From: an uncultured Saprospiraceae bacterium
GTDB taxonomy: Bacteria > Bacteroidota > Bacteroidia > Chitinophagales > Saprospiraceae
Direction of reading: 5' to 3'
DNA length: 64,000 nt
Assembly: GCA_937951615.1 (NCBI GenBank)
Contig: CALFBH010000075.1
Coordinates: 1-64,000, forward strand
Below, one piece after another: positions 1,904 through 62,289 of this stretch. Under the pieces are notes generated by a model. The model worked only from the letters and a program-made list of their open reading frames with translations. It did no database searches and was not told where the DNA came from. The position numbers and the translations under genes were made by a program. Numbering within the stretch: the first letter of the stretch is position 1; the number at the start of each line of letters is the position of its first letter.

Positions 1904-1942
1904 ACTATCGTCCATCGACCGCCGACTATCGACCAACTAAAA
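1904..1942 (+). repeat. ATCGACC/ACTATCG repeat leader before the 1943 start
   Basis: The 39 bases before the ATG contain two copies of ACTATCG and two of ATCGACC, followed by an A-rich gap. A similar string (ACTATCGACCA) occurs upstream of the minus-strand gene at 56122, in the orientation of that gene. It is one member of the start-codon leader repeats described in the findings. Confidence 0.6.
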
Positions 1943-3394
1943 ATGCCAACACAACACCTCCACAAAATATTCACTCAAAACCCAACACGCAACTTCCTCA
2001 CGGATAGTCGCGACGGCAAAACCTATACCTACGAAGCTTTCTTTAATTCAGGCAGCCAGGCAGCAGATTTTCTTCAAGAAAACAACATCACAAAAGTTGC
2101 CCTCATCATAGAAAACAGCGTAGACTTACTCGCGCTCTACCTCGGCGCATTACTCGAAGGCATCTGCGTCATCCCGATCGACCCGCTCAAAAGCCGGTCG
2201 GACATGGAAGAAATTTTGCGGGAAAGCGAATGCAAACAAGTCATTTGTAACGAAGCTATTTTTCAGCCCAAGGAAAACGGACTGACCGTCCATCACATAG
2301 AAAACATTCGCAAGTATTTTTATAATACAAAAAGAGAAAACGATTATACCCGACTACTCAATATTCAGCCGGAAAAACTATTCACGATTACCTTCACCTC
2401 CGGCACATCGGGCAAGCCAAAAGGCGTCATGCATTCCTTCCAAAACCTCTTTGGCGCAGCAAGAGCTTTTGGCGCAGCATTTGAATTTGGCGAAAGCCAC
2501 ACCTTCTACCACAACCTGCCGATGACCTATATGGCGGGCTTGCTCAATCTCTTTCTTGTACCGCTATGCGCAGGAAGTCGGCTGGTCTTGGGCAATCGCT
2601 TTAGCATCGGAGAAATACGAAAATTCTGGACGCCGATTGTCGAACATCAAGTCAATGCTTTTTTCCTCATTCCCACCATCGTCTCCTTGTTAATGAAACT
2701 GGATAAAGGTGAAACAGGAATCAATTATTGCAAGAACACAAACATCACCGCCTGCATCGGCACTGCACCGCTTGACCAAAATCTACGAATCCGTTTCAAA
2801 GAAAAATACGGACTGGAGGTGTACGAAAGTTATGGCTTATCTGAAACGCTATTCAATTTTACCAATGCCCCCAAATACGAAAAAATACAAGGCGTTGGAA
2901 AAGCACTGGAAGGACTGCAATACAACATAGCCGAAGACGGCGAAATAGAACTCAAAGCCCCCTGGAATTTCATAGGCTATTTCAATATGGACAAAGCCGA
3001 CTTCTTCAAAAACGACCGCTTCACCACAGGTGACCTCGGACAAGTCAGCGATGGTTTTCTGACCATCAACGGACGCAAAAAAGACCTCATCATCAAAGGC
3101 GGCGTAAACATCAGTCCAGCAAAAATAGAACGAACCATACAGGCTTCCGGCTTATTGAGTGAATTTGTCATCGCAGGTGCAAAAGACGAGATCACAGGCG
3201 AAAAAACCGTCTGTTTTTATATTCAAAATGAGCCTATCGAAAAATCAATTAAAAAGCAACTCAATCGAAAAATAGAAGCTGAATTGGGCAGAGATTATCT
3301 CATTGATGACTTTCGTCAAATAGAAGAATTTCCAAGAAATATTAATGGTAAGATTGATAAGAAAGAGTTGTACAGTCTTTATGAACAGAAATAA
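1943..3394 (+). CDS. AMP-dependent acyl ligase (ANL superfamily)
   Basis: A 483-residue adenylate-forming enzyme that should activate a carboxylic acid with ATP to acyl-AMP and pass it to CoA or a phosphopantetheine arm. Motifs: phosphate-binding loop TSGTSGKPKG at about 152-161, YGLSET at 297-302, TGD at 362-364 and the hinge GRKKDLIIKGG at 377-387; a C-terminal NGKIDKKEL carries the expected catalytic lysine. It lies five genes upstream of a protein with its own acyl-carrier domain (6169), a natural acceptor, so I infer that it loads that carrier rather than free CoA. The substrate cannot be read from sequence. It is slightly short for the superfamily, as is usual for stand-alone ligases in glycan clusters. 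Confidence 0.85.
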   Translation: MPTQHLHKIFTQNPTRNFLTDSRDGKTYTYEAFFNSGSQAADFLQENNITKVALIIENSVDLLALYLGALLEGICVIPIDPLKSRSDMEEILRESECKQVICNEAIFQPKENGLTVHHIENIRKYFYNTKRENDYTRLLNIQPEKLFTITFTSGTSGKPKGVMHSFQNLFGAARAFGAAFEFGESHTFYHNLPMTYMAGLLNLFLVPLCAGSRLVLGNRFSIGEIRKFWTPIVEHQVNAFFLIPTIVSLLMKLDKGETGINYCKNTNITACIGTAPLDQNLRIRFKEKYGLEVYESYGLSETLFNFTNAPKYEKIQGVGKALEGLQYNIAEDGEIELKAPWNFIGYFNMDKADFFKNDRFTTGDLGQVSDGFLTINGRKKDLIIKGGVNISPAKIERTIQASGLLSEFVIAGAKDEITGEKTVCFYIQNEPIEKSIKKQLNRKIEAELGRDYLIDDFRQIEEFPRNINGKIDKKELYSLYEQK

Positions 3395-3423
3395 TTCAAG
3401 CACTTTTTAATCAATTTAGATTA

Positions 3424-3467
3424 AGTGTGTTGAATTTGTATTTGACATTTGATTTTGAATTTAAAGC
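3424..3467 (+). repeat. TTTGAATTT-like repeat leader before the 3468 start
   Basis: Short T/A-rich repeats (TTGAATTTG, TTTGACATTTG, TTTTGAATTT) fill the gap up to the ATG. They resemble the cleaner GAATTTGAATTT repeat before the gene at 7252. This is low-complexity sequence, so repeat character alone is weak evidence. Confidence 0.4.
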
Positions 3468-4127
3468 ATGATATTCAACATAGATCACATCGGACTCAGT
3501 TCGACCAACTTCAAACAACACGATGCCCTGCTGACCAGCCTGGGTTACGAAAAAACCTTTGAAGAACACGACTTAGAAAATATGCCCATCAAAAAGCCCT
3601 ATTTGCAGGAATTTACCCCGACGCACAACCTGGCTTTATACCGAAAAGAAGGCACGTATGGTATCGAGTTGCTACAGCATGGAACGCTCAAAGGCGAACA
3701 GGGATTTATTTTTCCTTATAATAAAAATGAGGAAGAAGAACTAAGCGAAGCATCAATTTTGGATACTTTTGTAGTTCAGACCAACGACATTACAGCTTCT
3801 GCCAGATTTTGGTCAGCCTTCGGCTTCAAACAAAACGGCAAAGAAAATGACATGCTCCGAATGACCTTCAATACGATGATGACTGGAGAAACCTATCACC
3901 TCATTCTCCGTCACCAGCCAGGCGATTATCAATACTATCTCGATACGCCTGGCTTCAACAGCATCGCTTTTGTGTCCAGCTCGGCAGACAAAGAAAAACG
4001 CAAACTGGAAAAGAAAAATTACCCTACAAGCAGCATTGGACAAATCACCGTAAACGATCGTCCTTTAGATGTGTTTTTTGTCACCGGCCCTGCTGGTGAA
4101 CTCGTCGAAATTATCAGCTATGCTTGA
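3468..4127 (+). CDS. VOC-superfamily (glyoxalase/epimerase-like) protein
   Basis: A 219-residue protein opening with FNIDHIGLS, the typical first strand of a vicinal-oxygen-chelate module. A second module begins near residue 100 (SILDTFVVQTND) and ends with GPAGELVEIIS, the usual glutamate-bearing last strand. Such proteins are metal-dependent isomerases, epimerases, lyases or dioxygenases acting on small oxygenated acids; methylmalonyl-CoA epimerase is one relative. Its place between an acyl-AMP ligase and a methyltransferase suggests it modifies the acyl group made by this cassette (inference). Metal ligands could be His7 and the late Glu, but I cannot assign the reaction. Confidence 0.7.
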   Translation: MIFNIDHIGLSSTNFKQHDALLTSLGYEKTFEEHDLENMPIKKPYLQEFTPTHNLALYRKEGTYGIELLQHGTLKGEQGFIFPYNKNEEEELSEASILDTFVVQTNDITASARFWSAFGFKQNGKENDMLRMTFNTMMTGETYHLILRHQPGDYQYYLDTPGFNSIAFVSSSADKEKRKLEKKNYPTSSIGQITVNDRPLDVFFVTGPAGELVEIISYA

Positions 4128-4240
4128 TTAATTATAAATCTGAAAATTACGAATTACAAATCAATCTCAGCTATTGGTTTCGACTCCGCTCAAGTAACCA
4201 TAACTCAGTTGTCCGAGCAAAGCCGAGAACAACCAAAATT

Positions 4241-4288
4241 ACTAATCACCAGTTACCAATATCCCAGTTACCAATTACCAATATACCA
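4241..4288 (+). repeat. AGTTACCAAT repeat leader before the 4289 start
   Basis: The stretch before the ATG repeats CAGTTACCAAT and TTACCAAT several times and contains almost no G. It can be translated in frame with the downstream gene, which makes the open frame start misleadingly early at 4124. The low-complexity composition argues that it is an untranslated leader. Confidence 0.6.
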
Positions 4289-4975
4289 ATGTACAACGCA
4301 AAACAAATGTGGAACAAAGCCTATCGCGAAAAACGCGACATGGCATATCCCTCGGAATACGTCATCCGAATTTTAAAAGGAAAATATCCAAGGCTCAATC
4401 TCGACAAAGCCAATTTCAAAGGCAAAAAATTCTGCGACATGGGCTGCGGTGACGGGCGCAACGTCGCGCTAGCCAAAGAATGTGGCTTCCTGCCGCACGG
4501 CGTAGAAATTACAGATGACATCGTTGCCAAAATTCAGGAAAACCTGAAAAATATTGGTATTACAGATGCCGACATTCGAGCAGGAATGAACAACAACATT
4601 CCATTCGACGAAGCCTATTTCGACTACCTGATGTCCTGGAACGCCTGCTACTATATGGGCGAGGAAACAGACTTCAACAACTACGTCAAAGAATTTGCAA
4701 GAGTCTTGAAGTCGGAAGGTTATCTACTCTTGTCCATTCCCAAGAAAACCTGTTTCATCTTCGATAGCAGCGAGCAGGATCGCCCTGGTTATAATGTTAT
4801 TCGAGACGACTATTTTGGCTATCGCAACGGAGAAATTCTACGCATATTTGAAGACGAACAAGAAATCGAAGACACCTTTTCACCCTATTTCAAAAACTTC
4901 ATCCACGCCTCTATCCACGACGACTGCTTTGGCTTGGCCTACCACTGGCATCTAACTGTTTGCCAAAGAAAATAA
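4289..4975 (+). CDS. Class I SAM-dependent methyltransferase
   Basis: A 228-residue protein with motif I FCDMGCGDGRN, an acidic motif II at VEITD and the motif IV region YFDYLMSWNACYY, typical of small-molecule class I methyltransferases (methyltransferase types 11/25). I place the start at the ATG at 4289: the open frame extends to 4124, but those 55 codons translate a CCAAT-type repeat and do not look like protein. It probably methylates either the acyl precursor handled by the neighbouring ligase, VOC and cyclase genes, or a sugar; sequence does not decide. All genes from 1943 to 8688 are on the same strand, separated by repetitive leaders instead of the usual tight operon overlaps. Confidence 0.8.
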   Translation: MYNAKQMWNKAYREKRDMAYPSEYVIRILKGKYPRLNLDKANFKGKKFCDMGCGDGRNVALAKECGFLPHGVEITDDIVAKIQENLKNIGITDADIRAGMNNNIPFDEAYFDYLMSWNACYYMGEETDFNNYVKEFARVLKSEGYLLLSIPKKTCFIFDSSEQDRPGYNVIRDDYFGYRNGEILRIFEDEQEIEDTFSPYFKNFIHASIHDDCFGLAYHWHLTVCQRK

Positions 4976-4985
4976 TTTTGAAAAT

Positions 4986-5068
4986 GTGTTGGTGTGTTGA
5001 TGTGCGCATGTGTTGATGTGATTTTGTTGATGTAGCGATAATTCATGAATTATCGCTACATCAACAAA
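4986..5068 (+). repeat. G/T-rich 8-nt array plus perfect 46-bp palindrome
   Basis: Directly after the preceding stop codon, 4986-5020 reads as 8-nt units GTGTTGGT, GTGTTGAT, GTGCGCAT, GTGTTGAT. Then 5023-5068 is a perfect palindrome with 23-bp arms (left arm starts TTTGTTGATGTAGCG, centre TTCATGAA). The G/T units are nearly complementary to the C/A units that follow: GTGTTGGTGTGTTG matches the complement of two CGACAACA units at 12 of 14 positions. The RNA could therefore fold as a strong hairpin, as a longer G/T:C/A duplex, or both. Confidence 0.8.
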
Positions 5069-5070
5069 CA

Positions 5071-5174
5071 CGACAACACGACAACACGACAACACGACAA
5101 CACGACAACACGACAACACGACAACACGACAACACGACAACACGACAACACGACAACACGACAACACGACAACA
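5071..5174 (+). repeat. (CGACAACA)x13 tandem array before the 5182 start
   Basis: Thirteen perfect copies of the 8-nt unit CGACAACA, followed by CAATAAA and the ATG at 5182. There is no Shine-Dalgarno sequence. The same unit occurs 8 times before 8821, in a degenerate form before 18993, and on the minus strand before 62217. Perfect identity of the units suggests recent expansion by slippage. Confidence 0.95.
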
Positions 5175-5181
5175 CAATAAA

Positions 5182-5844
5182 ATGGAAATCATAGACATCA
5201 CCTACACCCTAGAAGAAGGCATGACCACTTTTGCTGCGCCCTGGCATTTCGGATTTGAAATACACCAATTGGGGAGACATGGACACGAAGGACGTGCCAG
5301 CCGAAAAATTGCCTTTGGCTCGCACACAGGCACACACATGGACGCGCCTTTGCACTTCATCGAAAACGGACAATCCATTGACGAAATTCCAATGGACATC
5401 ATGCTCGGACCAGTGACGATATACGACCTAAGCCATCTCAAAGACGGAGCAGCCGTAACACTCGACATGCTCGACAAACCCGTTACCGAGCGCATTATTT
5501 TCAAATATGGTTGGGGCAAACACTGGTACAGCAAAAAATTCTATACAGGCTATCCGTACCTGAGTGAAGAAGTGGCACATCACCTCGTCGAAAAAGGCGT
5601 AAAAATCATCGGCATGGACAGCCCCTCACCAGATGACAGCCTAATAAAACTGGATGCAGCAACAAGAGGCACAGCTGAAGACTCCCCCATCCACAAAATT
5701 TTGCTCGGCAATGGCGTCATCATGGTAGAATACATTGCCAACTTAGATCAACTAAAAGATACAGAAGGCTGGAACTGGACAGTCATGCCGATAAAAGTGA
5801 AAGGCTGTGACGGAGCGCCAGTAAGGTCTTGTTTGCACAGATAA
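5182..5844 (+). CDS. Cyclase-family (kynurenine formamidase-like) metal-dependent hydrolase
   Basis: A 220-residue protein with the signature GSHTGTHMDAPLHF at residues 46-59, in which His48, His52, Asp54 and His58 are the expected metal ligands. The later GMDSPSPDD is also typical. Members of the cyclase family (PF04199) hydrolyse or cyclise amides and esters, e.g. kynurenine formamidase, or form cyclic polyketides. Here it sits between a methyltransferase and an acyl-carrier/acyltransferase fusion, so a role in tailoring or trimming an acyl group is plausible, not shown. The start follows the CGACAACA array; no alternative in-frame start lies nearby. Length is normal for the family. Confidence 0.85.
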   Translation: MEIIDITYTLEEGMTTFAAPWHFGFEIHQLGRHGHEGRASRKIAFGSHTGTHMDAPLHFIENGQSIDEIPMDIMLGPVTIYDLSHLKDGAAVTLDMLDKPVTERIIFKYGWGKHWYSKKFYTGYPYLSEEVAHHLVEKGVKIIGMDSPSPDDSLIKLDAATRGTAEDSPIHKILLGNGVIMVEYIANLDQLKDTEGWNWTVMPIKVKGCDGAPVRSCLHR

Positions 5845-5902
5845 AACAAAAAACTTAGTGACCCTTCTCCACGATAGCTGTCGGGATTAGTGGCGTCAAA
5901 AA

Positions 5903-5977
5903 ACGCCTCGATGCGCAATCCAGTAAAACGCCTCGATGCGCAATCCAGTAAAACACCCCGATGCGCCACCCAGTAAA
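5903..5977 (+). repeat. Three tandem copies of a 25-bp unit
   Basis: Two identical 25-bp copies (5903-5927, 5928-5952; core CGCCTCGATGCGCAATCC) and a third variant (5953-5977; core CCCCGATGCGCCACCC). A 21-bp string spanning the third copy (5950-5970) recurs exactly at 14232-14252, so the third variant is also dispersed in the window. Confidence 0.9.
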
Positions 5978-5979
5978 AC

Positions 5980-6168
5980 AACCCGCAACCCGCAACCCGA
6001 AAACCCGCAACCCGCAACCCGCAACCCGAAAACCCGAAAACCCGAAAACCCGCAACCCGCAACCCGCAACCCGCAACCCGAAAACCCGAAAACCCGAAAA
6101 CCCGCAACCCGCAACCCGCAACCCGCAACCCGAAAACCCGCAACTCGCAACCCACAACTCAACAACAA
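5980..6168 (+). repeat. CCCGCAA / CCCGAAAA two-unit array before the 6169 start
   Basis: About 23 units separated by CCC, of two kinds: GCAA (A) and GAAAA (B). The order is AAB AAA BBB AAAA BBB AAAA B AA, so a higher-order block BBB-AAAA is repeated. The array ends in ACAACTCAACAACAA just before the ATG. G occurs only as one base per unit, and the array has no ATG. All reading frames on the minus strand stay open through it, which creates spurious long frames. Confidence 0.95.
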
Positions 6169-7209: not shown

Positions 7210-7212
7210 TTT

Positions 7213-7251
7213 ATTGAATTTGAATTTGGCGTTTGAATTTGAATTTAAACC
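7213..7251 (+). repeat. GAATTTGAATTT direct repeats before the 7252 start
   Basis: Two copies of TGAATTTGAATTT-like sequence separated by GGCGTT, then AAACC and the ATG. This A/T-type leader contrasts with the C/A-type leaders of its neighbours, but has the same position and internal repetition. Confidence 0.55.
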
Positions 7252-8688
7252 ATGCTTTTCAATTCCATAGAATTTTTCCTGTTTCTGCCATTGGTGTTCT
7301 GCCTATATTGGTTTGTCACCAATCGGAATTTGCGCCTGCAAAACCTGCTGATTCTAGCATCAAGTTATGTCTTTTACGGTGCTTGGGACTGGCGATTTTT
7401 ATTGCTGATATTTTTTAGTTCAGCGGCTGATTTTACCATAGGCTGGTTGATGGGCAGCACGCCCGAACATCAAAAACGACGACGAAAATTATTACTCTGG
7501 CTGAGCTTGGCACTCAATCTCGGCATACTTGGCTTTTTTAAGTATTACAACTTCTTTACCGATGCGCTGATAGACCTGCTACAAGGCTTTGGGCTTCACG
7601 CCAATTATCGGACATTATACATCATTTTGCCAGTAGGCATCAGTTTTTATACCTTTCAAACCCTTAGTTATACCATAGATATATACCGAGGGAAACTCAA
7701 GCCCAGTAAAGATCCAATAGCCTTTTTTGCCTTTGTTAGTTTCTTTCCCCAACTCGTGGCAGGCCCTATTGAACGTGCCTCGAATCTATTGCCTCAATTT
7801 GAGAAAAAAAGAAGCTTTGACTTCGACCAAGCCAGAGATGGAGCAAGACAAATGCTCTGGGGCTTCTTCAAAAAAATTGTCATAGCCGATAATTGCGGTA
7901 TTTTGGTCGATACTGTATTCGCAGATATTGGAGGAAGTAGTGGGAGCATGATTTTGCTGGCATTATGCTATTTTTCGTTTCAAATTTATTGCGACTTCAG
8001 TGGTTATTCAGACATTGCAATTGGCTGCGCCAAGCTGTTTGGTATCGGGCTGATGGACAATTTCAAATATCCATATTTTGCGAGGAATATAGGAGAGTTT
8101 TGGCGACGCTGGCATATTTCCTTATCGACTTGGTTTCGGGATTATCTGTACATTCCATTAGGCGGAAGCCGAGTCAGTCAGAAACGAGCTATTTTTAATG
8201 TCATGGCAATATTTCTGGTCAGTGGTTTCTGGCATGGCGCGAATTGGACATTTATTTTATGGGGATTTTTGCACGGCTTATTTTTTATACCGCTATTGCT
8301 AATGGGACAAAATCGCAGCTACTTAGATGTTGCAGCAAACGACCGCATCTTACCCAGTATCAAAGAGTTATTTCTAATCGGACTGACATTTTTAATGACG
8401 ACGCTTGCCTGGATACCATTTCGGGCAGAAAGCCTGAGTCATGTCGGAGAAATCATAAATGGCTTGATGTCTTCATCCTTGCTGTCCATTCCACCCATGA
8501 TGAAAATGATTCCATACATTGCCGTTTTTGTGTTGATAGAATGGTGGGGACGCAGAAAACGCTATCCATTAGAAAACCTAGAATTTGCCAAGCCTGTTCG
8601 CTGGGGTATTTATCTGACTTTATTTGCAGCTATTTTCCTACTGGGCGATTTCTCGCAAAAAGGCGAATTTATTTATTTTCAGTTTTGA
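7252..8688 (+). CDS. MBOAT-family O-acyltransferase (AlgI/DltB-like), copy 1
   Basis: A 478-residue polytopic membrane protein of the membrane-bound O-acyltransferase family. Signature regions are SFYTFQTLSYTIDIYR at 131-146, EFWRRWHISLSTWFRDY at 282-298 with His288, and SGFWHGANWTF at 324-334, whose His328 is the expected catalytic residue. AlgI and PatA-like members move acetyl or other acyl groups across the membrane to extracellular polysaccharide. The next gene encodes an SGNH-like protein, the usual partner that finishes the transfer outside the cell. A second copy lies at 10961; both end in FIYFQF. The donor is unknown, but the upstream ligase and carrier domain make a non-acetyl acyl group possible. 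Confidence 0.92.
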   Translation: MLFNSIEFFLFLPLVFCLYWFVTNRNLRLQNLLILASSYVFYGAWDWRFLLLIFFSSAADFTIGWLMGSTPEHQKRRRKLLLWLSLALNLGILGFFKYYNFFTDALIDLLQGFGLHANYRTLYIILPVGISFYTFQTLSYTIDIYRGKLKPSKDPIAFFAFVSFFPQLVAGPIERASNLLPQFEKKRSFDFDQARDGARQMLWGFFKKIVIADNCGILVDTVFADIGGSSGSMILLALCYFSFQIYCDFSGYSDIAIGCAKLFGIGLMDNFKYPYFARNIGEFWRRWHISLSTWFRDYLYIPLGGSRVSQKRAIFNVMAIFLVSGFWHGANWTFILWGFLHGLFFIPLLLMGQNRSYLDVAANDRILPSIKELFLIGLTFLMTTLAWIPFRAESLSHVGEIINGLMSSSLLSIPPMMKMIPYIAVFVLIEWWGRRKRYPLENLEFAKPVRWGIYLTLFAAIFLLGDFSQKGEFIYFQF

Positions 8689-8690
8689 AT

Positions 8691-8811
8691 GTGTTGAAGT
8701 GTTGATGTGCGCATGTGTTGAAGTAGATTTTTTTGCGAAGCAAAACACGACAACACGACAACACGACAACACGACAACACGACAACACGACAACACGACA
8801 ACACGACAACA
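8691..8811 (+). repeat. Second composite leader: G/T 8-nt array plus (CGACAACA)x8
   Basis: Starting 2 bases after the preceding stop, 8691-8722 reads GTGTTGAA, GTGTTGAT, GTGCGCAT, GTGTTGAA, nearly the same four units as at 4986. A short hairpin TTTTGC-GAA-GCAAAA follows. Then come eight perfect CGACAACA units (8748-8811) and a 9-base spacer to the TTG at 8821. The conserved order with a replaced middle hairpin suggests one element type in two places. Confidence 0.92.
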
Positions 8812-8820
8812 CATTTTCAT

Positions 8821-12975: not shown

Positions 12976-13019
12976 ATTCATCGTTCATCATTTATAGTTC
13001 ATCATTCAATAAAAATAAC
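12976..13019 (+). repeat. TTCATC repeat leader before the 13020 start
   Basis: The words TTCATCGTTCATCATTTATAG and TTCATCATTC form an imperfect tandem repeat of GTTCATCATT that ends in AATAAAAATAAC before the ATG. The first part recurs in inverted orientation just after the lspA stop near 54962-54985. Confidence 0.55.
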
Positions 13020-15575: not shown

Positions 15576-15648
15576 GGGGTAAAGTTATTCAATTAATTTT
15601 TAGATTGGAATTTGGTGCTTGGTTTTTGGAACTTTCATTTGTTCAAAA

Positions 15649-15710
15649 CATGATAATAAGTGAACGTAATCACTAAAAAACATGATAATAAGTGATTATA
15701 ATCACCAAAA
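15649..15710. promoter_or_regulatory. Two tandem 32-bp operator-like repeats before the DUF4143 ATPase
   Basis: ACATGATAATAAGTGA starts two direct copies, offset by 32 bp. The second contains a perfect 14-bp palindrome GTGATTATAATCAC (15692-15705); the first has GTGAACGTAATCAC with only the outer bases symmetric. The copies end about 20 bases before the ATG at 15730. Position and symmetry suggest a repressor or activator site. Confidence 0.55.
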
Positions 15711-15729
15711 ACCCTATTTTTGTATAAAA

Positions 15730-17921: not shown

Positions 17922-18896
17922 ATGCTACTCAAGCTACCAAAACCATCGGGTCATAAACAAGGCTGGCCCTGGACAGAAACAACTCCAGCAGAAGCCATTC
18001 AGCAAGGACAGGTCTATCCCAAAATTTCCATCATAGTCCCCACCTATAACCACGGCGCATTCATAGAAGAAACACTTCGTTCCATTATACTACAAAATTA
18101 TCCGAACCTCGAACTCATCGTCATGGATGGTGGGAGTACAGACAATACAGTAGACATATTGAAAAAATATGACGAATGGATTAGTATCTGGAAAAGTGAA
18201 AAAGACAAAGGACAAAGCGATGCCATGAACAAAGGTTGGCAACAGGCAACCGGAGAGGTCATTGGATTCATCAATTCGGACGATTATTACGAGCCGGGGG
18301 TTTTTGCCAGAGTAGGCAGGTATTTTAGCAGTGCATCTGACCTAGAAATGCTGCTCGGCAAAACCCGTATCATTGATAAAGACGGAGCAGAAATCAAAGT
18401 GAAAACGCCTTGTAGACGATATTCACAACTCGCAGTATTGGGCGGCAGACATAATATGCCCAATAATCCTGTCGGCTATTTTTATAGTAAAAAAATACAG
18501 GAAGAAGTAGGTGATTTTGACGTGAATGACCACTATTCAATGGATTATCGCTTTTTGCTCAAAGCATTCAAAGCAGCAAGGCACATCACCTATATAGATG
18601 CTGTGTTTGGTAATTATCGCTACGACGACCACACCAAAACATTCAATAATAACCAATCGGCAAAGGGGGGAGAAATCAGAGAAAAACTACAAAGAATGGC
18701 AGTAGAAGAATCTGAGCCTTTCGGCGAACGATATGTAGAATACCTCAAAAAAAGCCACGAACTCACCAATAAAAAAACTCGCTTGCCCCGACGCTTAGGC
18801 ATCAAAAAAATATTCGCGCCAGGCATTGACCGCCAATTGGATAAAATAGATGAACGACTATTAGCCATTGAAGACAGTAATCGAGTGACGAGTTGA
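17922..18896 (+). CDS. Glycosyltransferase family 2
   Basis: A 324-residue GT-A enzyme with ISIIVPTYNHGAFIEETLRS near 35-54, LELIVMDGGSTDNT, and the metal-binding INSDDYYEPG near 120. It should transfer a sugar from a nucleotide-sugar donor to a growing lipid-linked oligosaccharide on the inner face of the membrane. It is the first gene of the long plus-strand polysaccharide locus. The first about 30 residues (LKLPKPSGHKQGWPW) precede the domain and are common in this subfamily. Donor and acceptor cannot be read from sequence. The 3' end overlaps the start of a repeat leader for the next gene. Confidence 0.9.
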   Translation: MLLKLPKPSGHKQGWPWTETTPAEAIQQGQVYPKISIIVPTYNHGAFIEETLRSIILQNYPNLELIVMDGGSTDNTVDILKKYDEWISIWKSEKDKGQSDAMNKGWQQATGEVIGFINSDDYYEPGVFARVGRYFSSASDLEMLLGKTRIIDKDGAEIKVKTPCRRYSQLAVLGGRHNMPNNPVGYFYSKKIQEEVGDFDVNDHYSMDYRFLLKAFKAARHITYIDAVFGNYRYDDHTKTFNNNQSAKGGEIREKLQRMAVEESEPFGERYVEYLKKSHELTNKKTRLPRRLGIKKIFAPGIDRQLDKIDERLLAIEDSNRVTS

Positions 18897-18992
18897 ATGA
18901 GTTGCGAGTTGACGAGTTGCGAGTTATTGTATTTTCCGACAACACCAACACGACAACACGACAACACATCAACAGGACAACACATCAACAAC
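18897..18992 (+). repeat. GAGTTG array followed by degenerate CGACAACA array before 18993
   Basis: Immediately after the stop codon: GAGTTGC, GAGTTGAC, GAGTTGC, GAGTTATT (G/T-rich, 7-8 nt spacing). Then from 18938: CGACAACA, CCAACA, CGACAACA, CGACAACA, CATCAACA, GGACAACA, CATCAACA and ACATG. The order (G/T array after stop, C/A array before start) is the same as at 4986-5182. The C/A units vary at two positions, consistent with an older array. Confidence 0.85.
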
Positions 18993-20500: not shown

Positions 20501-20536
20501 GTTACCCAATAACCCAATAACCAATCAACTCAAACA
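20501..20536 (+). repeat. CCCAATAAC repeat leader before the 20537 start
   Basis: GGTTACCCAATAACC (a short self-complementary stretch) runs into CCAATAACCAATCAACTCAAACA and the ATG. It uses words shared with the leaders at 10922 and 28822. Confidence 0.55.
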
Positions 20537-27719: not shown

Positions 27720-28784
27720 ATGAATATAGCCATTATTACAGGCTCTGCTGGACTCATCGGCAGTCAGGCAGTCCGCTTTTTATCGGATAAATTTGATCAG
27801 GTCGTAGGGATTGATAATAATATGCGGGCCTACTTTTTTGGAGAGAATGCTTCAGTTGATTGGAATCGTCGCAGATTGGAAGACGAAGTAAATAATTATC
27901 GCCATTTGGAAGCAGACATTCGTCATTATGATGTGATTGAAAAAATATTTCGCGATTATGGCAATGACATCAAATTGATTGTACATACCGCAGCACAGCC
28001 TAGTCATGACTGGGCAGCAAAAGAACCGATTACAGACTTTTCAGTCAATGCTACAGGCACAGTGAATTTATTGGAAATAACGCGCTTGGTCTGTCCCAAA
28101 GCTGTATTTATTTTCACTTCTACCAATAAGGTTTATGGCGACACGCCCAATAGACTGCCACTGGTCGAATTGGACACACGTTGGGAAATAGCCGAGGATC
28201 ACAAATATTACGAGCATGGTATTGATGAGGAAATGAGTATCGATCATTGCAAACACTCCCTCTTTGGTGCATCAAAAGTAGCCGCAGATGTTATGGCACA
28301 GGAGTATGGAAAATATTTCGACATGAATGTCGGTGTATTTCGCGGAGGTTGTCTCACAGGACCCAATCATTCAGGAACACAACTGCACGGCTTTCTTTCT
28401 TACCTGATGAAATGTGCGATAACAGGCGATCATTACACGATTTTTGGGTATAAAGGCAAGCAGGTTCGCGATAATATTCACAGCTATGATTTGGTGAATA
28501 TGTTCTGGCATTTTTATCAAAACCCAAAACAAGGTGAAGCCTATAATGCAGGTGGCGGGCGACACTCCAACTGCTCCATGCAGGAAGCCATTTCGCTTTG
28601 TGAAATGATTACAGGCAACAAAATGAATTACAGCTATTCCGAAGACAACCGCGTCGGCGATCATATTTGGTGGATCAGTGATGTCTCCAAGTTTAAAAAC
28701 GACTATCCAGAATGGGACTGGAAATACGACTTGAAAGACATTCTGGAACAAATACACGAAGAAATGGCGGGACGAAAACTTTAG
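27720..28784 (+). CDS. CDP-paratose 2-epimerase-like SDR; active-site Tyr replaced by Phe
   Basis: A 354-residue extended SDR protein with NAD-binding [11 protein letters not shown] near 8-18, [12 protein letters not shown] near 136, and [17 protein letters not shown], features shared with CDP-paratose 2-epimerases. The usual Tyr-x-x-x-Lys reads HSLFGASK near 180: the Tyr is Phe while Lys is kept. From memory this substitution occurs in a whole subgroup of these proteins, so it is probably not a sequencing error, but the mechanism must differ or another acid/base is used. Likely role: modification of a nucleotide-sugar for the polysaccharide. It follows the flippase by 6 bases. Confidence 0.75.
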
Positions 28785-28785
28785 A

Positions 28786-28866
28786 ATTGAGTTATTGAGC
28801 TGATGAAGTAAAATCAACTCAATCAACCCAATAACTCAATCACCCAATACACTCAATCAACCAACA
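28786..28866 (+). repeat. Hairpin plus CAATCAACC/CAATAACTC leader before 28867
   Basis: One base after the preceding stop, ATTGAGTTATTG (28786-28797) pairs perfectly with CAATAACTCAAT (28829-28840). The second arm is embedded in a G-free tandem of CAACTCAAT, CAACCCAAT, AACTCAATCACCCAATACACTCAAT, written here in pieces, that runs to the TTG at 28867. The layout (G/T arm after stop, C/A array before start) is that of 4986-5182, with different words. Confidence 0.75.
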
Positions 28867-30006
28867 TTGAAAGATAAAGTAATGATCGTCACAGCCTGGG
28901 TATTTCCTGGCACTGGTGGCACAATAGCGATACTGAACAATCTCCTTGAATATTTTTCGCAGGAAGAAGTGATATTGGTCGGCCGTCCACATCTCTTGAA
29001 TGATGAACAAAAATGGGGAGAACACCTGCCTCGTTTATACCCGATACAACCTATTTTGCCACCCAAAGGGCGAACCAATAAATACAGACGTTTATTGGCA
29101 TTGCCTCGGATTATACCCAGATTAAAACAAATAGCTCGGGAAGAGAATTGTACAAAAATACTTTCTGTTTTCCCTGACGAATTTATGATGTATGCATCAT
29201 ACCAGGTGAGTAAAGAACTTGATTTGCCGTTTTATACCTGGTTTCATAATACTTATTTGGACAATCGTCATGGATTGTGGAGAAGGATAGCAAAACGCTG
29301 GCAGCCAAAATTTTTCAATCACGCTGAAACCAACTTTGTGATGAGTGAAGGGATGCGGGATTATTATGCCGATGTGTATCCCGATATTACCTTTGAACCT
29401 TTAGAACATGGCTTTGTAATTCCTGAAGTATCTTATAAACCTCCATCCCAAGCACAAGGAAAAATAAAATTTATGTTTTCTGGCAGCTTGAATGAGTCCT
29501 GCCTCGATGCTTCTATCCGCATCTTCAAACACATTATTGCGAATCCTAATTATGAGTTGCATATATTCACAGGAGATACCAATTTTCTGGATATACACGA
29601 TATAAAAGGCGATAATGTAATCGTACATGGATTCCGACCACTGAGCGAATTTGTTGCGATGTTGAATCAGTTTGACATTATGCTGCTACCGCATGGCTTT
29701 GTGGGGGGGCAGACAGAAGCAGAGTATAAAACTATTTTTCCAACACGGACAATTCCTTTATTATATTCAAATAGACCGATACTGGCGCACAGCCCGCCAC
29801 ATGCCTTTCTGACCACTTTTCTGAAGCAAAGAGATTGTGCAGAAGTAGTAGAAATAGCGGATACCAATGCGATACAAATAGCTATTGATAGATTAATCAA
29901 TGATGAACAACGTAGAAATCAGCTGATTAAAAATGCATTGGAAACATCAGACTTTTTTAATGTAAAAAGGATTGGTGGAAAACTGAAACAAGCCCTTTTT
30001 TCCTAA
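28867..30006 (+). CDS. Glycosyltransferase (GT-B, group 1-like)
   Basis: A 379-residue protein opening with VMIVTAWVFPGTGGTIAIL, a GT-B acceptor-domain start, and with a C-terminal half containing KFMFSGSLNESC, a typical strand of the donor domain. The glutamate-rich EX7E motif of GT4 enzymes is not clear, so it may belong to a divergent GT-B family. The start is TTG at 28867; an ATG lies 15 bases inside (MIVTAW) and would shorten it by five residues. Likely adds a sugar to the repeat unit. Stop and next start (30009) are 2 bases apart. Confidence 0.72.
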   Translation: MKDKVMIVTAWVFPGTGGTIAILNNLLEYFSQEEVILVGRPHLLNDEQKWGEHLPRLYPIQPILPPKGRTNKYRRLLALPRIIPRLKQIAREENCTKILSVFPDEFMMYASYQVSKELDLPFYTWFHNTYLDNRHGLWRRIAKRWQPKFFNHAETNFVMSEGMRDYYADVYPDITFEPLEHGFVIPEVSYKPPSQAQGKIKFMFSGSLNESCLDASIRIFKHIIANPNYELHIFTGDTNFLDIHDIKGDNVIVHGFRPLSEFVAMLNQFDIMLLPHGFVGGQTEAEYKTIFPTRTIPLLYSNRPILAHSPPHAFLTTFLKQRDCAEVVEIADTNAIQIAIDRLINDEQRRNQLIKNALETSDFFNVKRIGGKLKQALFS

Positions 30007-55273: not shown

Positions 55274-56122
55274 CTAAAGCCCCCAACCCAACACCTTCAA
55301 CTTCCCAGTATTCTTAAAATTACTAAACCCCTTCAGCATGTGCTTGCCTAATAAAAAGCCTTCTCGGTTCTGACCTTCTATGCCATATAAAATCTGACTA
55401 TCGCCTGCACGCAAGGCACAACGGTAAGGATAGCCGTGAATATCAAAAAACAGCATCGTGTACATCAGGTCATTATTGCCGTCTAGCATGGCTTGGTCGG
55501 CTTCTCGTTGTGGCGCCATGCGGAAAGGCTGATCGTAATACTTGCCGACATTCTTTTTATATTTATCCAAGACATCCTGTTTGGCGATCAACAAAGTTTT
55601 GCCGGCCATTTTGGGGTGATTTTTATTATAGGCAGAGATGGTTTCACTGTAATTACTGGGGGGCAGGCGTTTTTTCAAGCCCATTTCCAGATAATTTTGC
55701 ATCAATTGTACTGCCCGAACACATTCGATATAATAATAAGTCGAATCGCCGACGATCATATTGGCGTAAGCCACCATGTCCTGCGGGCCATAGCCACAGC
55801 GTCCGCCCAGCACAATGCCCACATCGTCGTATTTTTCATCCTTGAATTGATGATCGCGTATGGTTTGCACCACAACAAAGGAGTATTTTTTGTTCTTACA
55901 ATATTTTTTGTATTGCGAACCCGAAATAAAGCGGTATTTCGTGAAAGTCCAGTGTTTTTGGAAGGCCTGTTTGATGGCTTCATTATACGAATCGTGGTAG
56001 CCGAGGACGACCAAGGTTTCCGTTTCTTTTAGTTTTTTAATGTCTTTAGTGCCGCCTTCGCCAAATTGGGCGTATGCCATTAAGACCAGCATGGAGCAGA
56101 GTATGGTAAAAATTGTTTTCAT
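55274..56122 (-). CDS. Secreted protein of unknown function
   Basis: A 282-residue protein with a signal peptide (residues 1-18, ending MAYAQ) and thus periplasmic or extracellular. Segments ETLVVLGYHDSYNEAIKQAF and GIVLGGRCGYGPQDMVAYAN look like an alpha/beta fold with a conserved Gly loop. I do not recognise a family, but it resembles uncharacterised Bacteroidota proteins. A leader of ACTATCGAC repeats lies upstream (see 56156-56209). Neighbours give no pathway. Confidence 0.55.
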   Translation of the reverse strand: MKTIFTILCSMLVLMAYAQFGEGGTKDIKKLKETETLVVLGYHDSYNEAIKQAFQKHWTFTKYRFISGSQYKKYCKNKKYSFVVVQTIRDHQFKDEKYDDVGIVLGGRCGYGPQDMVAYANMIVGDSTYYYIECVRAVQLMQNYLEMGLKKRLPPSNYSETISAYNKNHPKMAGKTLLIAKQDVLDKYKKNVGKYYDQPFRMAPQREADQAMLDGNNDLMYTMLFFDIHGYPYRCALRAGDSQILYGIEGQNREGFLLGKHMLKGFSNFKNTGKLKVLGWGL

Positions 56123-56155
56123 GAGAAAAAATTAATTATTTTAGGTTGAAAAGAG

Positions 56156-56209
56156 TGGTCGATAGTCCATAGTCGATAGTCCATGGTTGTTTTTTCAGCC
56201 ATCGACTAT
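56156..56209 (-). repeat. ACTATCGAC repeats and inverted arm upstream of 56122
   Basis: On the minus strand ATAGTCGAT (56201-56209) is followed by GGACTATCGACTATGGACT and ATCGACCA (56156-56185), so the first arm can pair with ATCGACTAT units in the array. The array ends about 34 bases before the ATG, not directly at it. Words match the leader at 1904-1942 on the plus strand, in gene orientation. Confidence 0.55.
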
Positions 56210-56326
56210 TGACAATTATATATAATACGGCTTTGAGTGGAATTTGTTTTCAGCGTTTCAAGAGCTAAATAACAATTTTTTTGCCAAACTCTTATCACAT
56301 ATACGTCATTTTTGTATTTTGCAAAT

Positions 56327-57657: not shown

Positions 57658-57667
57658 TTCTACAAAA

Positions 57668-57725
57668 AAATACAATTCCACAATTTCACCATCCCACAAT
57701 CCCACCAATTCCCTATCTTTACCCC
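57668..57725 (+). repeat. CCACAATTTCACC/CCCACAATCCCACC leader before 57726
   Basis: G-free tandem words CCACAATTTCACCATCC, CACAATCCCACCAATTCCC run up to TATCTTTACCCC and the ATG. Also TATCTTTA at 57712-57719 resembles a weak -7 box, but the distance to the start is too short for a repeat leader to be transcribed from it. Confidence 0.5.
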
Positions 57726-59516: not shown

Positions 59517-59519
59517 GGC

Positions 59520-60008
59520 TTATCCTGCTTTTGCCAGCAAATCCTCAATATTGTAATTGAGATACTTATCCATGCTAGCTGTACCAAATTTTTTCAATTC
59601 GTTTTTGTTTTGAACATTCAACAACAAAGAAGGATTTATTTTAAATGTTTTCCCCAGTTTAATCGCTAAATCTAAATTGAGTTTTCTTTTTCCGTTTAGA
59701 AAAGCACTCATATTAGAGGCCTCGTATTCCATATATTGGGCTAAATCCTGGTTTTTTATATTTAGTAGGTTAATGAGGTCTTTTATAAATTTTCCGACAT
59801 CTTTTATTTCATTATTATTTGAATACAGATAAGATTCCATCTGAAACCTGATTGACAATAAAATATTGTCTCTTTTCTCTTCTGGCGAAAGTTGTTTACT
59901 TCGAGCTATAATCTGTGCTTGTAAATCTTTAAAATCTTTAGCATTGGTATCAACATATCCTGTACCCGTACCATTTATCCCGCCCGCATTTATTATTTTA
60001 TCTTTCAT
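59520..60008 (-). CDS. HTH (XRE/HigA-like) antitoxin-type regulator
   Basis: A 162-residue protein whose C-terminal part is a helix-turn-helix: LNIKNQDLAQYMEYEASNMS near 88-107, with AFLNGKRKLNLDLAIKLGKT as recognition and following helix. The N-terminal 80 residues are helical and unlike plain XRE regulators, perhaps a partner-binding part. It follows the gene at 60010 by one base on the same strand, in toxin-first order as in HigBA. It probably represses the pair via the hairpin at 60538-60554. Confidence 0.72.
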   Translation of the reverse strand: MKDKIINAGGINGTGTGYVDTNAKDFKDLQAQIIARSKQLSPEEKRDNILLSIRFQMESYLYSNNNEIKDVGKFIKDLINLLNIKNQDLAQYMEYEASNMSAFLNGKRKLNLDLAIKLGKTFKINPSLLLNVQNKNELKKFGTASMDKYLNYNIEDLLAKAG

Positions 60009-60009
60009 T

Positions 60010-60510
60010 TTAATTTGTGATTTCTAGCTGTAGGTAGTGTTTTATCAATTCTTTTCCCGCTTTATCATCAATAAACATCTTTTGCCCCATTGCTCTGGAT
60101 GCTTTATATTTTCTCTCGTATAATTGAATTAGCGTTGTTTTGCTTTCAAAGGATAAAAAACCTCTGTAATTTCCACCACCTTTTTCAAAACTCAGCCAAC
60201 AAGCATAAGCTATTAAACAGCCTGCTGTATTGTTATACTTTCCTTCTTTTCCATAATTGTGTGGTGCTACTTCTAGGTTATTCATGTACACCATTTCTCC
60301 AGATATTAGTGTAATCATCAGTAGTCCTTCAATGATTTTCGGACTATTATTTAAGGCTACTTTATATAATATTGCACCCTCTGTTTTTTGTAAACTTCTC
60401 CAATTAAATTTCCAACCCTCTTTTTTAAAAGGAATTTCTTTTTGGATAACAAGAGCAATAAATGCTTTTTTACGAATGTTTGTTTTGGAATCAATTAGTT
60501 CTATTTCCAT
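60010..60510 (-). CDS. Possible toxin (GNAT-like fold), partner of the HTH protein
   Basis: A 166-residue protein with YMNNLEVAPHNYGKEGKYNN and GCLIAYACWLSFEKGGGNYR, followed by GFLSFESKTTLIQLYERKYKA. This order resembles the acetyl-CoA site and last strands of GNAT acetyltransferases, though the pyrophosphate loop is not clear. As first gene of a two-gene unit with an HTH protein it is a toxin candidate. An enzyme unrelated to a toxin is also possible. Confidence 0.5.
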   Translation of the reverse strand: MEIELIDSKTNIRKKAFIALVIQKEIPFKKEGWKFNWRSLQKTEGAILYKVALNNSPKIIEGLLMITLISGEMVYMNNLEVAPHNYGKEGKYNNTAGCLIAYACWLSFEKGGGNYRGFLSFESKTTLIQLYERKYKASRAMGQKMFIDDKAGKELIKHYLQLEITN

Positions 60511-60537
60511 AACGAGTTTTGGATTATTTCCATAAAG

Positions 60538-60554
60538 TTATCGTTTTTCGATAA
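60538..60554. promoter_or_regulatory. Hairpin/operator TTATCG-TTTTT-CGATAA in the TA promoter region
   Basis: Perfect 6-bp inverted repeat 28 bases upstream of the minus-strand start at 60510. Suitable position for an autoregulatory operator of the toxin-antitoxin-like pair. Confidence 0.45.
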
Positions 60555-60666
60555 GTTTGTCAACTTTTATGAGTGTTAATTTTTGTCAAAATCGGTTTAT
60601 AAAAGGGTAACAAATGCTTTGTTTGCGTGATATACCTATTGAAAGTTAAACTAGAAAAATATTATA

Positions 60667-61149
60667 ATGGAAATAATTTTCAGGCATTTTTGGATCATGT
60701 TTATTGCTGTTACTGTTGCAAATGCATTTATCCTGAAAAACTACTCGCAAAAATATATTGCTGAGGATCCGACCTTAAAAAAAGGGTATGATGACTATTT
60801 CAAAGGGATATTATTTTATGGAAATATTCCCTGGATAATTATGGGAATTGGTTGTCTGACAGGTCTGACGAATGGGATTCCTGAATATTCTTCTCCAAGG
60901 GAGATGAACCCTGTCGTTTTGGCACTTGACTTTTCAATTATTATCTTATGGGTATTAAGCTTTCGATGGATTTACTTCAGAAACGGAGCCGAATTTCTTG
61001 AAAGACATCCGGGAATATTTTTTCGACCAACGATCTTGAATAAAAATGGTAAGGTGACGGCTAGAGATATAAAGCGACGTTACTCATTCATACTCCTTTG
61101 CTGGATAATCATGATGTGGATAATGGATTTTCCAGCTTCAAATTTTTGA
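60667..61149 (+). CDS. Small membrane protein of unknown function
   Basis: A 160-residue protein with about four hydrophobic segments (FWIMFIAVTVANAFIL, ILFYGNIPWIIMGIGCLTGL, VLALDFSIIILWVLSFRWIY, FILLCWIIMMWIMDF). I recognise no family. It lacks a signal peptide and any obvious catalytic motif. Flanked by divergent and convergent genes, so transcribed alone. Confidence 0.6.
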   Translation: MEIIFRHFWIMFIAVTVANAFILKNYSQKYIAEDPTLKKGYDDYFKGILFYGNIPWIIMGIGCLTGLTNGIPEYSSPREMNPVVLALDFSIIILWVLSFRWIYFRNGAEFLERHPGIFFRPTILNKNGKVTARDIKRRYSFILLCWIIMMWIMDFPASNF

Positions 61150-61191
61150 GATGAACACTTCAACTAACCTTTCTCCCATCACCGAGATTAG

Positions 61192-61224
61192 AACGGTGAA
61201 AAAGCGACTCATCCGCAGTCGCTT
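61192..61224. terminator. Two stems in the convergent gap, AAGCGACT...AGTCGCTT
   Basis: AAGCGACT (61202-61209) pairs perfectly with AGTCGCTT (61217-61224); a smaller CACCG/CGGTG stem lies just upstream. No clean T run follows, so termination is suggestive only. Confidence 0.4.
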
Positions 61225-61290
61225 AACTGGATTTACATGGTATTGGAATAGAATTGTACTTCATCATCCGACTAAAATGGATATAGATAT

Positions 61291-62217
61291 TCAGGCTTCA
61301 AAACCTGCCAGTCTTGCCTCCTTGTGAAGTGCCAACTCTCGTGCTTCCTTTACAGTCACTTGTCGAAATCGAATGATTCCACCGGTCGGCATTTGCGCCA
61401 GCGTATCCAAGTCGGCATCAATCACTTTGGCTATGCGCGGGTAGCCGCCTGTCGTTTGTCCATCTTGCATCAGGATAATAGGTTGTCCATTGGCAGGAAC
61501 CTGTATGCTGCCAGGCAAGGTAGCAGAGGAAGGCATCGGAGCTTTTGATGTGTAGAGTAGCGTTTCACCTTGTAGCCGAATCCCCATTCTATCGCTATCG
61601 GCTTGTATCGTGTAAGTCGAGATTTCTAATTTTTTATGGTCAATTGGTGAAAATTGTCCCCATTCTGGGCCGAGCAGGATGCGGAGAATTTGTTTTTTGT
61701 GAAAATGATGAATCAAGTGTTCGGGAATACTTCGATTTGGATTTTTAGGTTTTTCATTTTTCCAATGGAGCGAATCGCCGACCCGTAAAGTACGTCCTTC
61801 TAAGCCGCCAAATTCACTTAAAGTATAAGTTGAAGTGCTGCCGAAAACTAAGGGAATATCGGGCTTTCCTTGTATGGCAATATAGGTACATTTTCCTGAT
61901 TTTGCATAGCTGAATTTCAGGACATCGCCTGCCTGTACAGTCAGACTTTTGTTCATAGGACAATCCTTGTTGTTTAGGTTTGCGCCCATGTCTGCACCAG
62001 TGATTGCTATGATAGCTGTTTGTGTAAACTCATATACTCCACCTTTCAATAAACACTCTAAGCATGAAGTATTTTTGTCATTGTTTACCAGCCAGTTAGC
62101 GAGTTTGAACGAATGTAAATCCATCGCTCCTGATTTTGGAATACCGAATTTCCGAAATCCAATTCTGCCGCCATCTTGAATGGTGCTGTGTATGCCGTTT
62201 TTGAGAACTTTTAGCAT
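61291..62217 (-). CDS. pxpC: 5-oxoprolinase subunit C / biotin-dependent carboxyltransferase-like (KipA/AHS2)
   Basis: A 308-residue protein with STIQDGGRIGFRKFGIPKSG near 12-31, the hallmark of the AHS2/KipA family, plus GPEWGQFSP and SDRMGIRLQGE further on. In the PxpABC complex it helps hydrolyse 5-oxoproline to glutamate using ATP; alone it resembles the carboxyltransferase part of urea amidolyase. PxpA and PxpB would be expected next to it but are not in this window. The leader is a hairpin plus CAACAC array (62226-62289). Confidence 0.88.
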   Translation of the reverse strand: MLKVLKNGIHSTIQDGGRIGFRKFGIPKSGAMDLHSFKLANWLVNNDKNTSCLECLLKGGVYEFTQTAIIAITGADMGANLNNKDCPMNKSLTVQAGDVLKFSYAKSGKCTYIAIQGKPDIPLVFGSTSTYTLSEFGGLEGRTLRVGDSLHWKNEKPKNPNRSIPEHLIHHFHKKQILRILLGPEWGQFSPIDHKKLEISTYTIQADSDRMGIRLQGETLLYTSKAPMPSSATLPGSIQVPANGQPIILMQDGQTTGGYPRIAKVIDADLDTLAQMPTGGIIRFRQVTVKEARELALHKEARLAGFEA

Positions 62218-62225
62218 CTGTTTTT

Positions 62226-62289
62226 GTGTTGTCGTGTTGTGGTGTTGATGTGTTGTTGTACTTTGCTGAATAAGACATCAACACCACAA
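62226..62289 (-). repeat. Minus-strand hairpin plus degenerate CGACAACA array before 62217
   Basis: In gene orientation, a 15-bp perfect inverted repeat (arms 62275-62289 and 62237-62251; stem TTGTGGTGTTGATGT) is followed by 8-nt units CAACAACA, CATCAACA, CCACAACA, CGACAACA and then AAAAACAG and the ATG. The last hairpin arm is itself part of the C/A array. It shows that the leader element is oriented with its gene and not with the chromosome. Confidence 0.85.

Follow-up and report, generated by a model that had tools for sequence, protein, structure and literature searches.

Short words repeated in tandem between genes are known from several bacterial groups. The short tandemly repeated repetitive (STRR) sequences of Cyanobacteria are tandem heptamers lying in spacers and, to our knowledge, are not known as paired arms anchored at stop codons. 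Here we describe tandem arrays in the spacers of an uncultured Saprospiraceae bacterium, in a window of 64,000 nt (the whole stretch of contig CALFBH010000075.1, or C75, that was analyzed) and beyond it; the source genome, a Saprospiraceae-like member of the Bacteroidota, spans 6.96 Mb in 142 contigs. A gene from another of its contigs matches Saprospiraceae records, with 83% identity in one uncultured metagenome-assembled genome and 59-64% in eight further records that include Lewinella and Flavilitoribacter, which makes membership of that family most likely. In Beggiatoaceae, Cyanobacteria, and Bacteroidetes, arrays of the heptamer TAACTGA are intergenic and lie mostly within several nucleotides upstream of start codons, where canonical ribosome-binding sites are rare (MacGregor 2015, PMC4679880). 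Passages of that paper report that 12 of 14 sets in F. litoralis face the start codon, that one set stands reversed right after a stop codon, and that the repeats take up no particular RNA structure unless folded with surrounding sequence. The present arrays resemble those of these passages in consisting of ~7-nt tandem words in spacers beside starts, with a polarity as in F. litoralis, and differ from the one fixed word in that many words occur, often paired as hairpins. No TAACTGA doublet occurred in the sequence sampled from six members of the genus.

Repetitive extragenic palindromic (REP) sequences offer a second comparison. As summarized in a passage of PMC3733652, they are dispersed extragenic hairpins that lie mainly between unidirectional or convergent open reading frames (ORFs), in many cases at <20 bp from the 3' end of an ORF, and at times provide its stop codon; for REPINs, a passage of PMC3116915 notes compensatory changes within the hairpin. 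Our arrays are likewise dispersed extragenic palindromes present in many copies in co-directional and convergent spacers near ORF 3' ends. Unlike REPs they have no fixed consensus, and their arms are tandem words of 7-8 nt, of many kinds, which can differ between species at the same site; the REP tag motifs GTAG and CGTC stood within 6 nt of the outer end in 7 and 3 of 154 hairpins, respectively. We file the spacer hairpins as a variant within the tandem and extragenic palindromic repeats of bacteria. Among the matches listed by a search of open-access journal titles and abstracts, none described paired word arrays at stop codons. With regard to translation, PMC3155529 states that Shine-Dalgarno (SD) motifs are generally absent in Bacteroidetes, that SD-less starts carry little structure, and that, in P. 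bryantii, strong structure placed 20 bp upstream leaves translation uninhibited. The stems described here, whose median end point is 28 nt upstream of the called start (co-directional word hairpins of this genome), are compatible with that statement, and the start regions, too, resemble such SD-less leaders in that SD-like 4-mers are rare and the region is predicted to be more open where arrays occur. The abstract of that paper makes no mention of repeats.

Placement, pairing, and polarity of the arrays

We computed the position, complementarity, polarity, and anchoring of the arrays, as well as the genome-specific words and the word differences at orthologous sites. The sampled sequence of this genome comprised 857,571 bases (the window together with parts of seven further contigs, ~12% of the genome), in which a home-made caller placed 609 genes with approximate starts; the thresholds were chosen by us, and repeat copy numbers may be inaccurate in these draft assemblies. 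Five congeners (G001-G005, making six genus members with this genome) and four other genera of the family (G006, G007, G009, and G018) served as relatives, their contigs having been picked by similarity to query stretches and thus not constituting random samples. In this genome the arrays are far beyond chance: at a Tandem Repeats Finder (TRF) score of at least 44, co-directional spacers (73.6 kb) contained 119 arrays, convergent spacers (22.7 kb) 33, and divergent spacers (37.4 kb) 26, compared with 1, 0, and 0 after a single dinucleotide shuffle, and the density in coding DNA was 0.05 per kb.

The earlier note on this window had read the arrays as start-codon leaders and had held that an equal frequency at 3' ends would speak against this. 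That is largely what was found: an array lay within 60 nt of 51/178 convergent stops and 75/335 co-directional starts (p 0.13), and divergent starts carried one far more rarely than co-directional starts did (9/198, p 7e-9). In favor of the leader proposal, G-poor arrays outnumbered C-poor ones 57:8 at co-directional starts; at divergent starts of this genome the ratio was 4:4. Single arrays at convergent stops had a polarity of 26:18 in this genome and 43:6 in four congeners.

Many of the arrays proved to be one half of a spacer hairpin: they form its C/A-rich 3' arm, and the G/T-rich 5' arm opens, where the flanking genes are co-directional, at a median distance of 6 nt from the previous stop codon. 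The unit consists of a G/T-rich tandem, mostly of 7-8-nt words, past the stop, then a loop or small core, and then a complementary C/A-rich tandem; between co-directional genes the C/A arm can extend to the next start, and other start arrays lack a partner arm. The two ends of a spacer were complementary (score of at least 12) in 37/272 co-directional, 9/70 convergent, and 0/77 divergent spacers of this genome, compared with 1.1%, 2.3%, and 0.8% for permuted partners and 0.1%, 0%, and 0.4% for shuffled spacers. Inverted repeats of the same score anywhere in the spacer were present in 94/272, 37/70, and 14/77 spacers (7/272, 0/70, and 5/77 after shuffling). We defined a word hairpin as a spacer inverted repeat scoring at least 14 with a tandem array in an arm; such hairpins occurred in 33/272 co-directional, 10/70 convergent, and 2/77 divergent spacers of this genome and in 77/305 co-directional and 25/88 convergent spacers of the five congeners. 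Periods 7 and 8 accounted for 157 of the 296 arrays in word hairpins.

The 5' arm contained more G than C in 96 co-directional word hairpins and less in 9 over the six genomes, and the corresponding ratios were 30:4 in convergent and 8:3 in divergent spacers. The palindrome is identical on both strands, and therefore the G/T-to-C/A polarity needs no start codon; the convergent ratio rules out selection at start codons as the sole cause of polarity. The hairpins are anchored at stops, with a median stop-to-5'-arm distance of 5-13.5 nt in co-directional spacers of five genomes (53 nt in G001, which has one hairpin) and, by a raw count with no null, the nearer stop at most 10 nt away for 28/38 hairpins of convergent spacers. 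For the 54 hairpins in co-directional spacers of 200-600 nt, the stop was at a median distance of 18 nt and the start at one of 92 nt. Complementarity belonged to the spacer (12.5-25.0% in four genomes, spacers of at least 120 nt) and not to both ends of one gene (2.3-8.2%; random 2.4-4.8%). We accordingly rejected gene cassettes flanked by inverted repeats, because a gene's own leader matched its own 3' end at the random level in three of four genomes (2.3% vs 2.4%, 4.4% vs 3.8%, and 5.0% vs 4.8%), with a mild excess in G005 (8.2% vs 4.1%). A multi-frame stop trap was likewise dismissed, the excess of stop codons in 5' arms (0.104 vs 0.093 in dinucleotide shuffles, sd 0.002) being too small.

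Some word hairpins are tipped by a mini-hairpin, TTTTGC-n3-5-GCAAAA, that may act as their nucleus. It was counted 32 times in 74 kb of co-directional, 7 times in 23 kb of convergent, and 4 times in 37 kb of divergent spacer of this genome, and once in 721 kb of coding sequence.

Words in relatives and at orthologous spacers

Word hairpins were frequent in this genome and in G002-G005 and sparse in G001 (1/59 co-directional and 0/14 convergent spacers). In the other genera, inverted repeats scoring at least 14 were found in 1/28 (G006), 0/1 (G007), 0/18 (G009), and 3/26 (G018) co-directional spacers and in 1/4, 0/0, 0/4, and 0/4 convergent ones; tandem arrays were present outside the genus, at 0.80 per kb of co-directional spacer in G006 and 0.94 per kb of convergent spacer in G018. 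In the 260 nt after the stop of gene 48, inspected at 7 of the 9 loci that it matched, only L138 displayed a short G/T-type repeat by eye.

From the variety of repeat words, the earlier note had suggested repeated, independent expansion. We observed instead that words recur as genome-specific families at unlinked loci, with different words at some orthologous sites. AACACGACAACACGAC had 306 matches across this genome vs 0, 3, 0, 1, and 1 in the five congeners, and GAATGAGTGAATGAGTGAATG was absent from this genome and G001 and had 7, 4, 53, and 11 matches in G002-G005 (long arrays are counted several times in both cases). Single-linkage clustering failed to yield discrete word families, because it joined 445 of the 475 arrays into a single chained cluster. 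The differences are illustrated by the spacer that separates a 367-aa gene from a neighbor of 190 aa, the latter probably nadD-like: G003 and G004 have hairpins of AATGAGTGAATG / CATTCACTCATT (scores 23 and 27), G005 has one of AATGCGATAATG / CATTATCGCATT (score 24), in this genome the words at either end of the spacer do not match and no hairpin forms (8.0), and the G001 spacer is 30 nt long. Behind the 190-aa gene, G003 carries one word pair nested symmetrically within another.

We compared 210 pairs of orthologous spacers, the contingency counts being taken without G001 and with both spacers at least 40 nt long. Hairpin presence was associated across co-directional pairs (24 with a hairpin in both species, 36 in one, 47 in neither; odds ratio [OR] 4.3, p 9e-4) and convergent pairs (5, 3, and 9; p 0.03), values that come from pairs that are not independent of one another. 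In the 29 pairs with a hairpin in both species, 5'-arm similarity was at least 0.42, the 90th percentile of unrelated hairpins, in 14 and lower in 15; three of the low-similarity pairs are between G003 and G004, with flanking proteins 93-95% identical. The arms of the 15 less similar pairs matched better within a species than across species in 15/15 (20.0 vs 9.1), a comparison with some circularity, since being a hairpin was the entry requirement for both members and unlike 5' arms defined the less similar group, while the 14 more similar pairs showed no difference (6:6). These patterns allow the tentative suggestion, which we rate well below even odds, that the hairpin structure is inherited while its words are swapped, both arms being rewritten at once from a shared vocabulary, so that the element would be defined by its architecture alone, without any conserved sequence, and would act as the 3' hairpin of one gene and the open leader of its neighbor.

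Two observations from individual spacers are added here. The group 6 spacers of L118, L119, L120, and L121 share a conserved stretch, AAAAACGGGAAGACCTTAC ... AATAAGGACTCCCTAACCC, in four congeners, which is perhaps a structured RNA or leader. In G004, the convergent spacer L107:4333-4998 is built from blocks of two word families that alternate, with a further repetition at a higher order.

Weighing the explanations

We favor, at a probability of a little more than one half, the explanation that the arrays are dispersed, fast-changing, hairpin-forming repeats of the genus, anchored at gene 3' ends, mainly in co-directional and convergent spacers, with a 3' arm that doubles as the leader of the next gene. 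In the mRNA, the stem would sit at the 3' end of the upstream message and could provide protection, processing, or insulation, and the C/A stretch by the next start, poor in G and without an SD motif, would stay open for the ribosome. The recurrence of words suggests that they spread within a genome by copying between loci; they may grow by slippage, and the two arms might be replaced or corrected together through insertion of a new hairpin or template switching from arm to arm. REP-type palindromes are known by conserved sequence; here it is the layout that recurs (stop, G/T words, loop, C/A words, start), and the sequence filling it varies from locus to locus and, at some sites, from one sister species to another. 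A swap of words, if real and frequent, would need a process that writes both arms together and would provide naturally varied 3' ends and leaders on the same genes, with which translation initiation in SD-less bacteria could be probed. Published heptamer arrays before starts would merit rereading with a complementary partner after the previous stop in mind.

Several results tell against this preferred explanation. More than half of the G-poor start arrays of this genome (30/51) have no partner arm, and the partnerless arrays at its convergent stops show no polarity (14:14). Arrays near divergent starts in four congeners are G-poor by 28:8 (5:7 in this genome by the same count), and 10/74 divergent spacers of the five congeners contain a word hairpin, although missed genes could mislabel spacers. 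The convergent polarity is weak when all inverted repeats scoring at least 14 are included (36:24 over six genomes; own 14:9, G001 1:5, G002 4:1, G003 7:4, G004 5:2, and G005 5:3). At orthologous spacers, besides the non-independence and circularity stated above, shared hairpin presence may reflect permissive spacers and not kept function, and composite spacers can hide shared words, as in group 8, where G004 and G005 share a CATTCACTCATTCAAAATT leader by the start and their hairpin uses another word, while the G003 hairpin uses CATTCACTCATTCAAAATT.

Neutral or selfish REP-like hairpins devoid of function, tolerated in the least harmful spacers and kept away from divergent ones by purifying selection on promoters, form a contender that we find doubtful yet worth serious attention. 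The placement near ORF 3' ends is shared with REPs as characterized in PMC3733652, the words are genome-specific and turned over at orthologous sites, a hairpin was confined to one species in 36/107 co-directional ortholog pairs, and Y1 transposases are encoded in this genome. However, the scarcity of the REP tag and the lack of any mobilizer tied to the arrays disagree with it. For the Y1 (RAYT) transposases associated with REPs, PF01797 matches numbered 4 in this genome and 0, 2, 9, 0, and 2 in G001-G005, counts that do not track array abundance (G004 is 69% complete and hairpin-rich). The association of hairpin presence across orthologous sites (OR 4.3) also disagrees, and the G-poor polarity at co-directional starts, together with the higher predicted openness, suggests selection at least there. 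The same polarity and openness are what one would expect if the arrays were start-codon leaders, repeatedly expanded for an unstructured, accessible 5' region, with the 3'-end arrays secondary. Over -15 to +12, the predicted unpaired probability was higher for genes with word hairpins than for genes with no array, both with 200 nt upstream (0.523 vs 0.456, p 0.04) and with a 40-nt leader (0.594 vs 0.522, p 0.006; 70 genes each, spacers 60-300 nt, four genomes), and was highest for the other start arrays (0.582 and 0.643, 42 genes). The partnerless start arrays of this genome (30:3 G-poor), the divergent starts of the congeners, and the group 8 leader word that is common to two species while the hairpin differs from that of the third agree with this account as well. 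Divergent starts of this genome that rarely carry an array and then without polarity, convergent stops as rich as starts, the same polarity where no start exists (30:4), and words common to several loci make it unlikely, and, as the whole story, leaders alone were rejected on the few arrays at divergent starts and the many at convergent stops. A leader effect nevertheless remains, because 8/14 window sites have no partner arm and divergent starts of sister species carry G-poor arrays.

The arrays could be unconventional terminators whose hairpin ends the upstream transcript and whose C/A-rich, G-poor arm might also load Rho. Word hairpins do occur where a 3' end exists, within a few nucleotides of the stop, and are scarce in the divergent spacers of this genome, and arrays were fewer in co-directional spacers with an ordinary terminator (5/27 vs 103/276). 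We nonetheless regard termination as quite improbable, given that only 7/65 word hairpins (loop at most 30 nt) were followed by at least 5 T in the next 8 nt, so that the T-tract of intrinsic terminators is usually missing (14% of 101 plain inverted repeats had one), that convergent spacers showed no exclusion of arrays by ordinary terminators (9/20 vs 28/57), and that the arm often ends beside the downstream start, an odd place for stopping transcription. In co-directional spacers of 60-120 nt (n 28), the base of the stem lay at a median of 3 nt past the stop and 13 nt before the start, a geometry suited to a translational coupler or read-through insulator, in which post-stop bases pair with pre-start bases and the second gene is opened by the ribosomes of the first or shut in read-through RNA. 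This is very unlikely, as convergent spacers carry word hairpins as often (10/70 vs 33/272) and the starts with word hairpins are predicted to be more open, not less, in the 200-nt context. A slippage-tunable, phase-variable expression switch, for which some long and perfect arrays such as AACACGAC x13.6 would be candidates of recent expansion, seems hardly credible; such arrays are found between convergent genes too, with no gene to lead into.

Hairpins and arrays of the window

The descriptive statements of the earlier note about 14 start codons of the window were borne out in part. A TRF array scoring at least 30 (the cut-off for these sites) lay in the spacer at 13/14, the exception being 10961, and ranged from marginal (1943, score 30) to very strong (5182, score 218; 6169). 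In the 60 nt preceding the start (for 7252, 10961, and 13020, whose spacers are shorter, in the entire spacer), G amounted to 0.00-0.12 at 13/14 sites, with the opposite composition at 7252 (G 0.17, C 0.07), and ATG was absent from 13/14, one copy occurring at 56122. SD-like sequences were indeed rare, with SD-like 4-mers before 32/605 called starts, yet above the 2.8% of mononucleotide-shuffled sequence. Our caller preferred other starts at seven sites, namely, 7330 (for 7252), 8875 (8821), 11111 (10961), 13077 (13020), 28882 (28867), 62049 (62217), and 56092 (56122), although it tends to trim N-termini, so its choices may be wrong. The complementary-word arrays at or just after stop codons (4984-5020, 8681-8724, and 18889-18925, all on the plus strand) had not been mentioned before.

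The strongest hairpin precedes the start at 5182 (inverted-repeat score 26.5; fold z -7.0 for spacer 4976-5181). Its 5' arm of ATGTGTTG words (4984..5020, plus strand, like all sites below unless stated) starts 8 nt past the stop at 4975 and is followed by a perfect palindromic core, GTTGATGTAGCGATAATT-CATG-AATTATCGCTACATCAAC (5026..5065), evident in sequence and fold, and by the 3' arm with surplus unpaired copies (5067..5175), an array of AACACGAC x13.6 with 100% matches by TRF that reaches the start. Ahead of 8821 (score 11.0; z -2.25 for 8689-8820), a 5' arm of AGTGTTGA words (8681..8724) overlaps the stop at 8688, the core is the mini-hairpin TTTTGC-GAA-GCAAAA (8731..8745), and the 3' arm is AACACGAC x8.6 by TRF (8744..8812). 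Ahead of 18993 (score 10.0; weak fold, z -1.75 for 18897-18992), GAGTTGAC-type words (18889..18925) form the 5' arm and take in the stop codon with which a gene ends at 18896, and CGACAACA words form the 3' arm (18937..18990). Directly past the stop at 28784 lies the outer 5' stem ATTGAGTTATTG (28786..28797), with a 3' arm and remainder of CAATCAACTC-type words (28816..28864; outer 3' stem 28829-28840) before the start at 28867 or 28882 (score 14.0; z -6.25 for 28785-28866). On the minus strand, a ACATCAACACCAC-type 3' arm (62237..62257) pairs with a 5' arm at 62269-62289 ahead of 62217 (score 16.0; z -6.2 for 62218-62500, a stretch shared with an unrelated dispersed repeat that has inverted ends too), and a hairpin of GTCAATAGTCGATGG-type words (56172..56213) lies in the divergent spacer ahead of 56122 (score 11.0; z -3.9 for 56123-56311).

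The remaining eight sites scored 4.0-8.0, with no partner arm. Their arrays are ATCGACC words ahead of 1943 (1907..1935, weak; score 5.0), AATTACC words ahead of 4289 (4237..4290; TRF 55, score 7.0), CAACCCG x24.6 by TRF ahead of 6169 (5979..6158; z -0.5), a C-poor TTGAAT array detected by TRF ahead of 7252 (7214..7246; z -2.4 for 7210-7251), ATTCATC words ahead of 13020 (12976..13008; TRF 38), a short array of ACCCAATA x2.4 ahead of 20537 (20504..20522; TRF 38, score 8.0), and ACAATTCC words ahead of 57726 (57672..57712; TRF 45). Fold z ranged from -0.8 to +0.5 at seven sites, and the two scores together therefore indicate that at about half of the 14 sites the array or plain G-poor leader lacks a partner arm. 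Rfam at gathering thresholds gave no match within the window.

Other repeats lie nearby. A separate 25-nt x3.2 tandem repeat, AAAACGCCTCGATGCGCAATCCAGT, occupies 5900-5979, immediately ahead of the CAACCCG array, and a twice-repeated 32-nt unit containing ATG (15645-15711) surrounds the start of the gene at 15682. The interval 62330-62491 holds one copy, at 90% identity to the copy used as query, of a ~160-bp interspersed repeat with inverted ends, resembling a miniature inverted-repeat transposable element, which occurs in many places in this genome and as more diverged copies in congeners; further dispersed repeats of about 110-250 bp were seen in contigs C41, C7, and C12.

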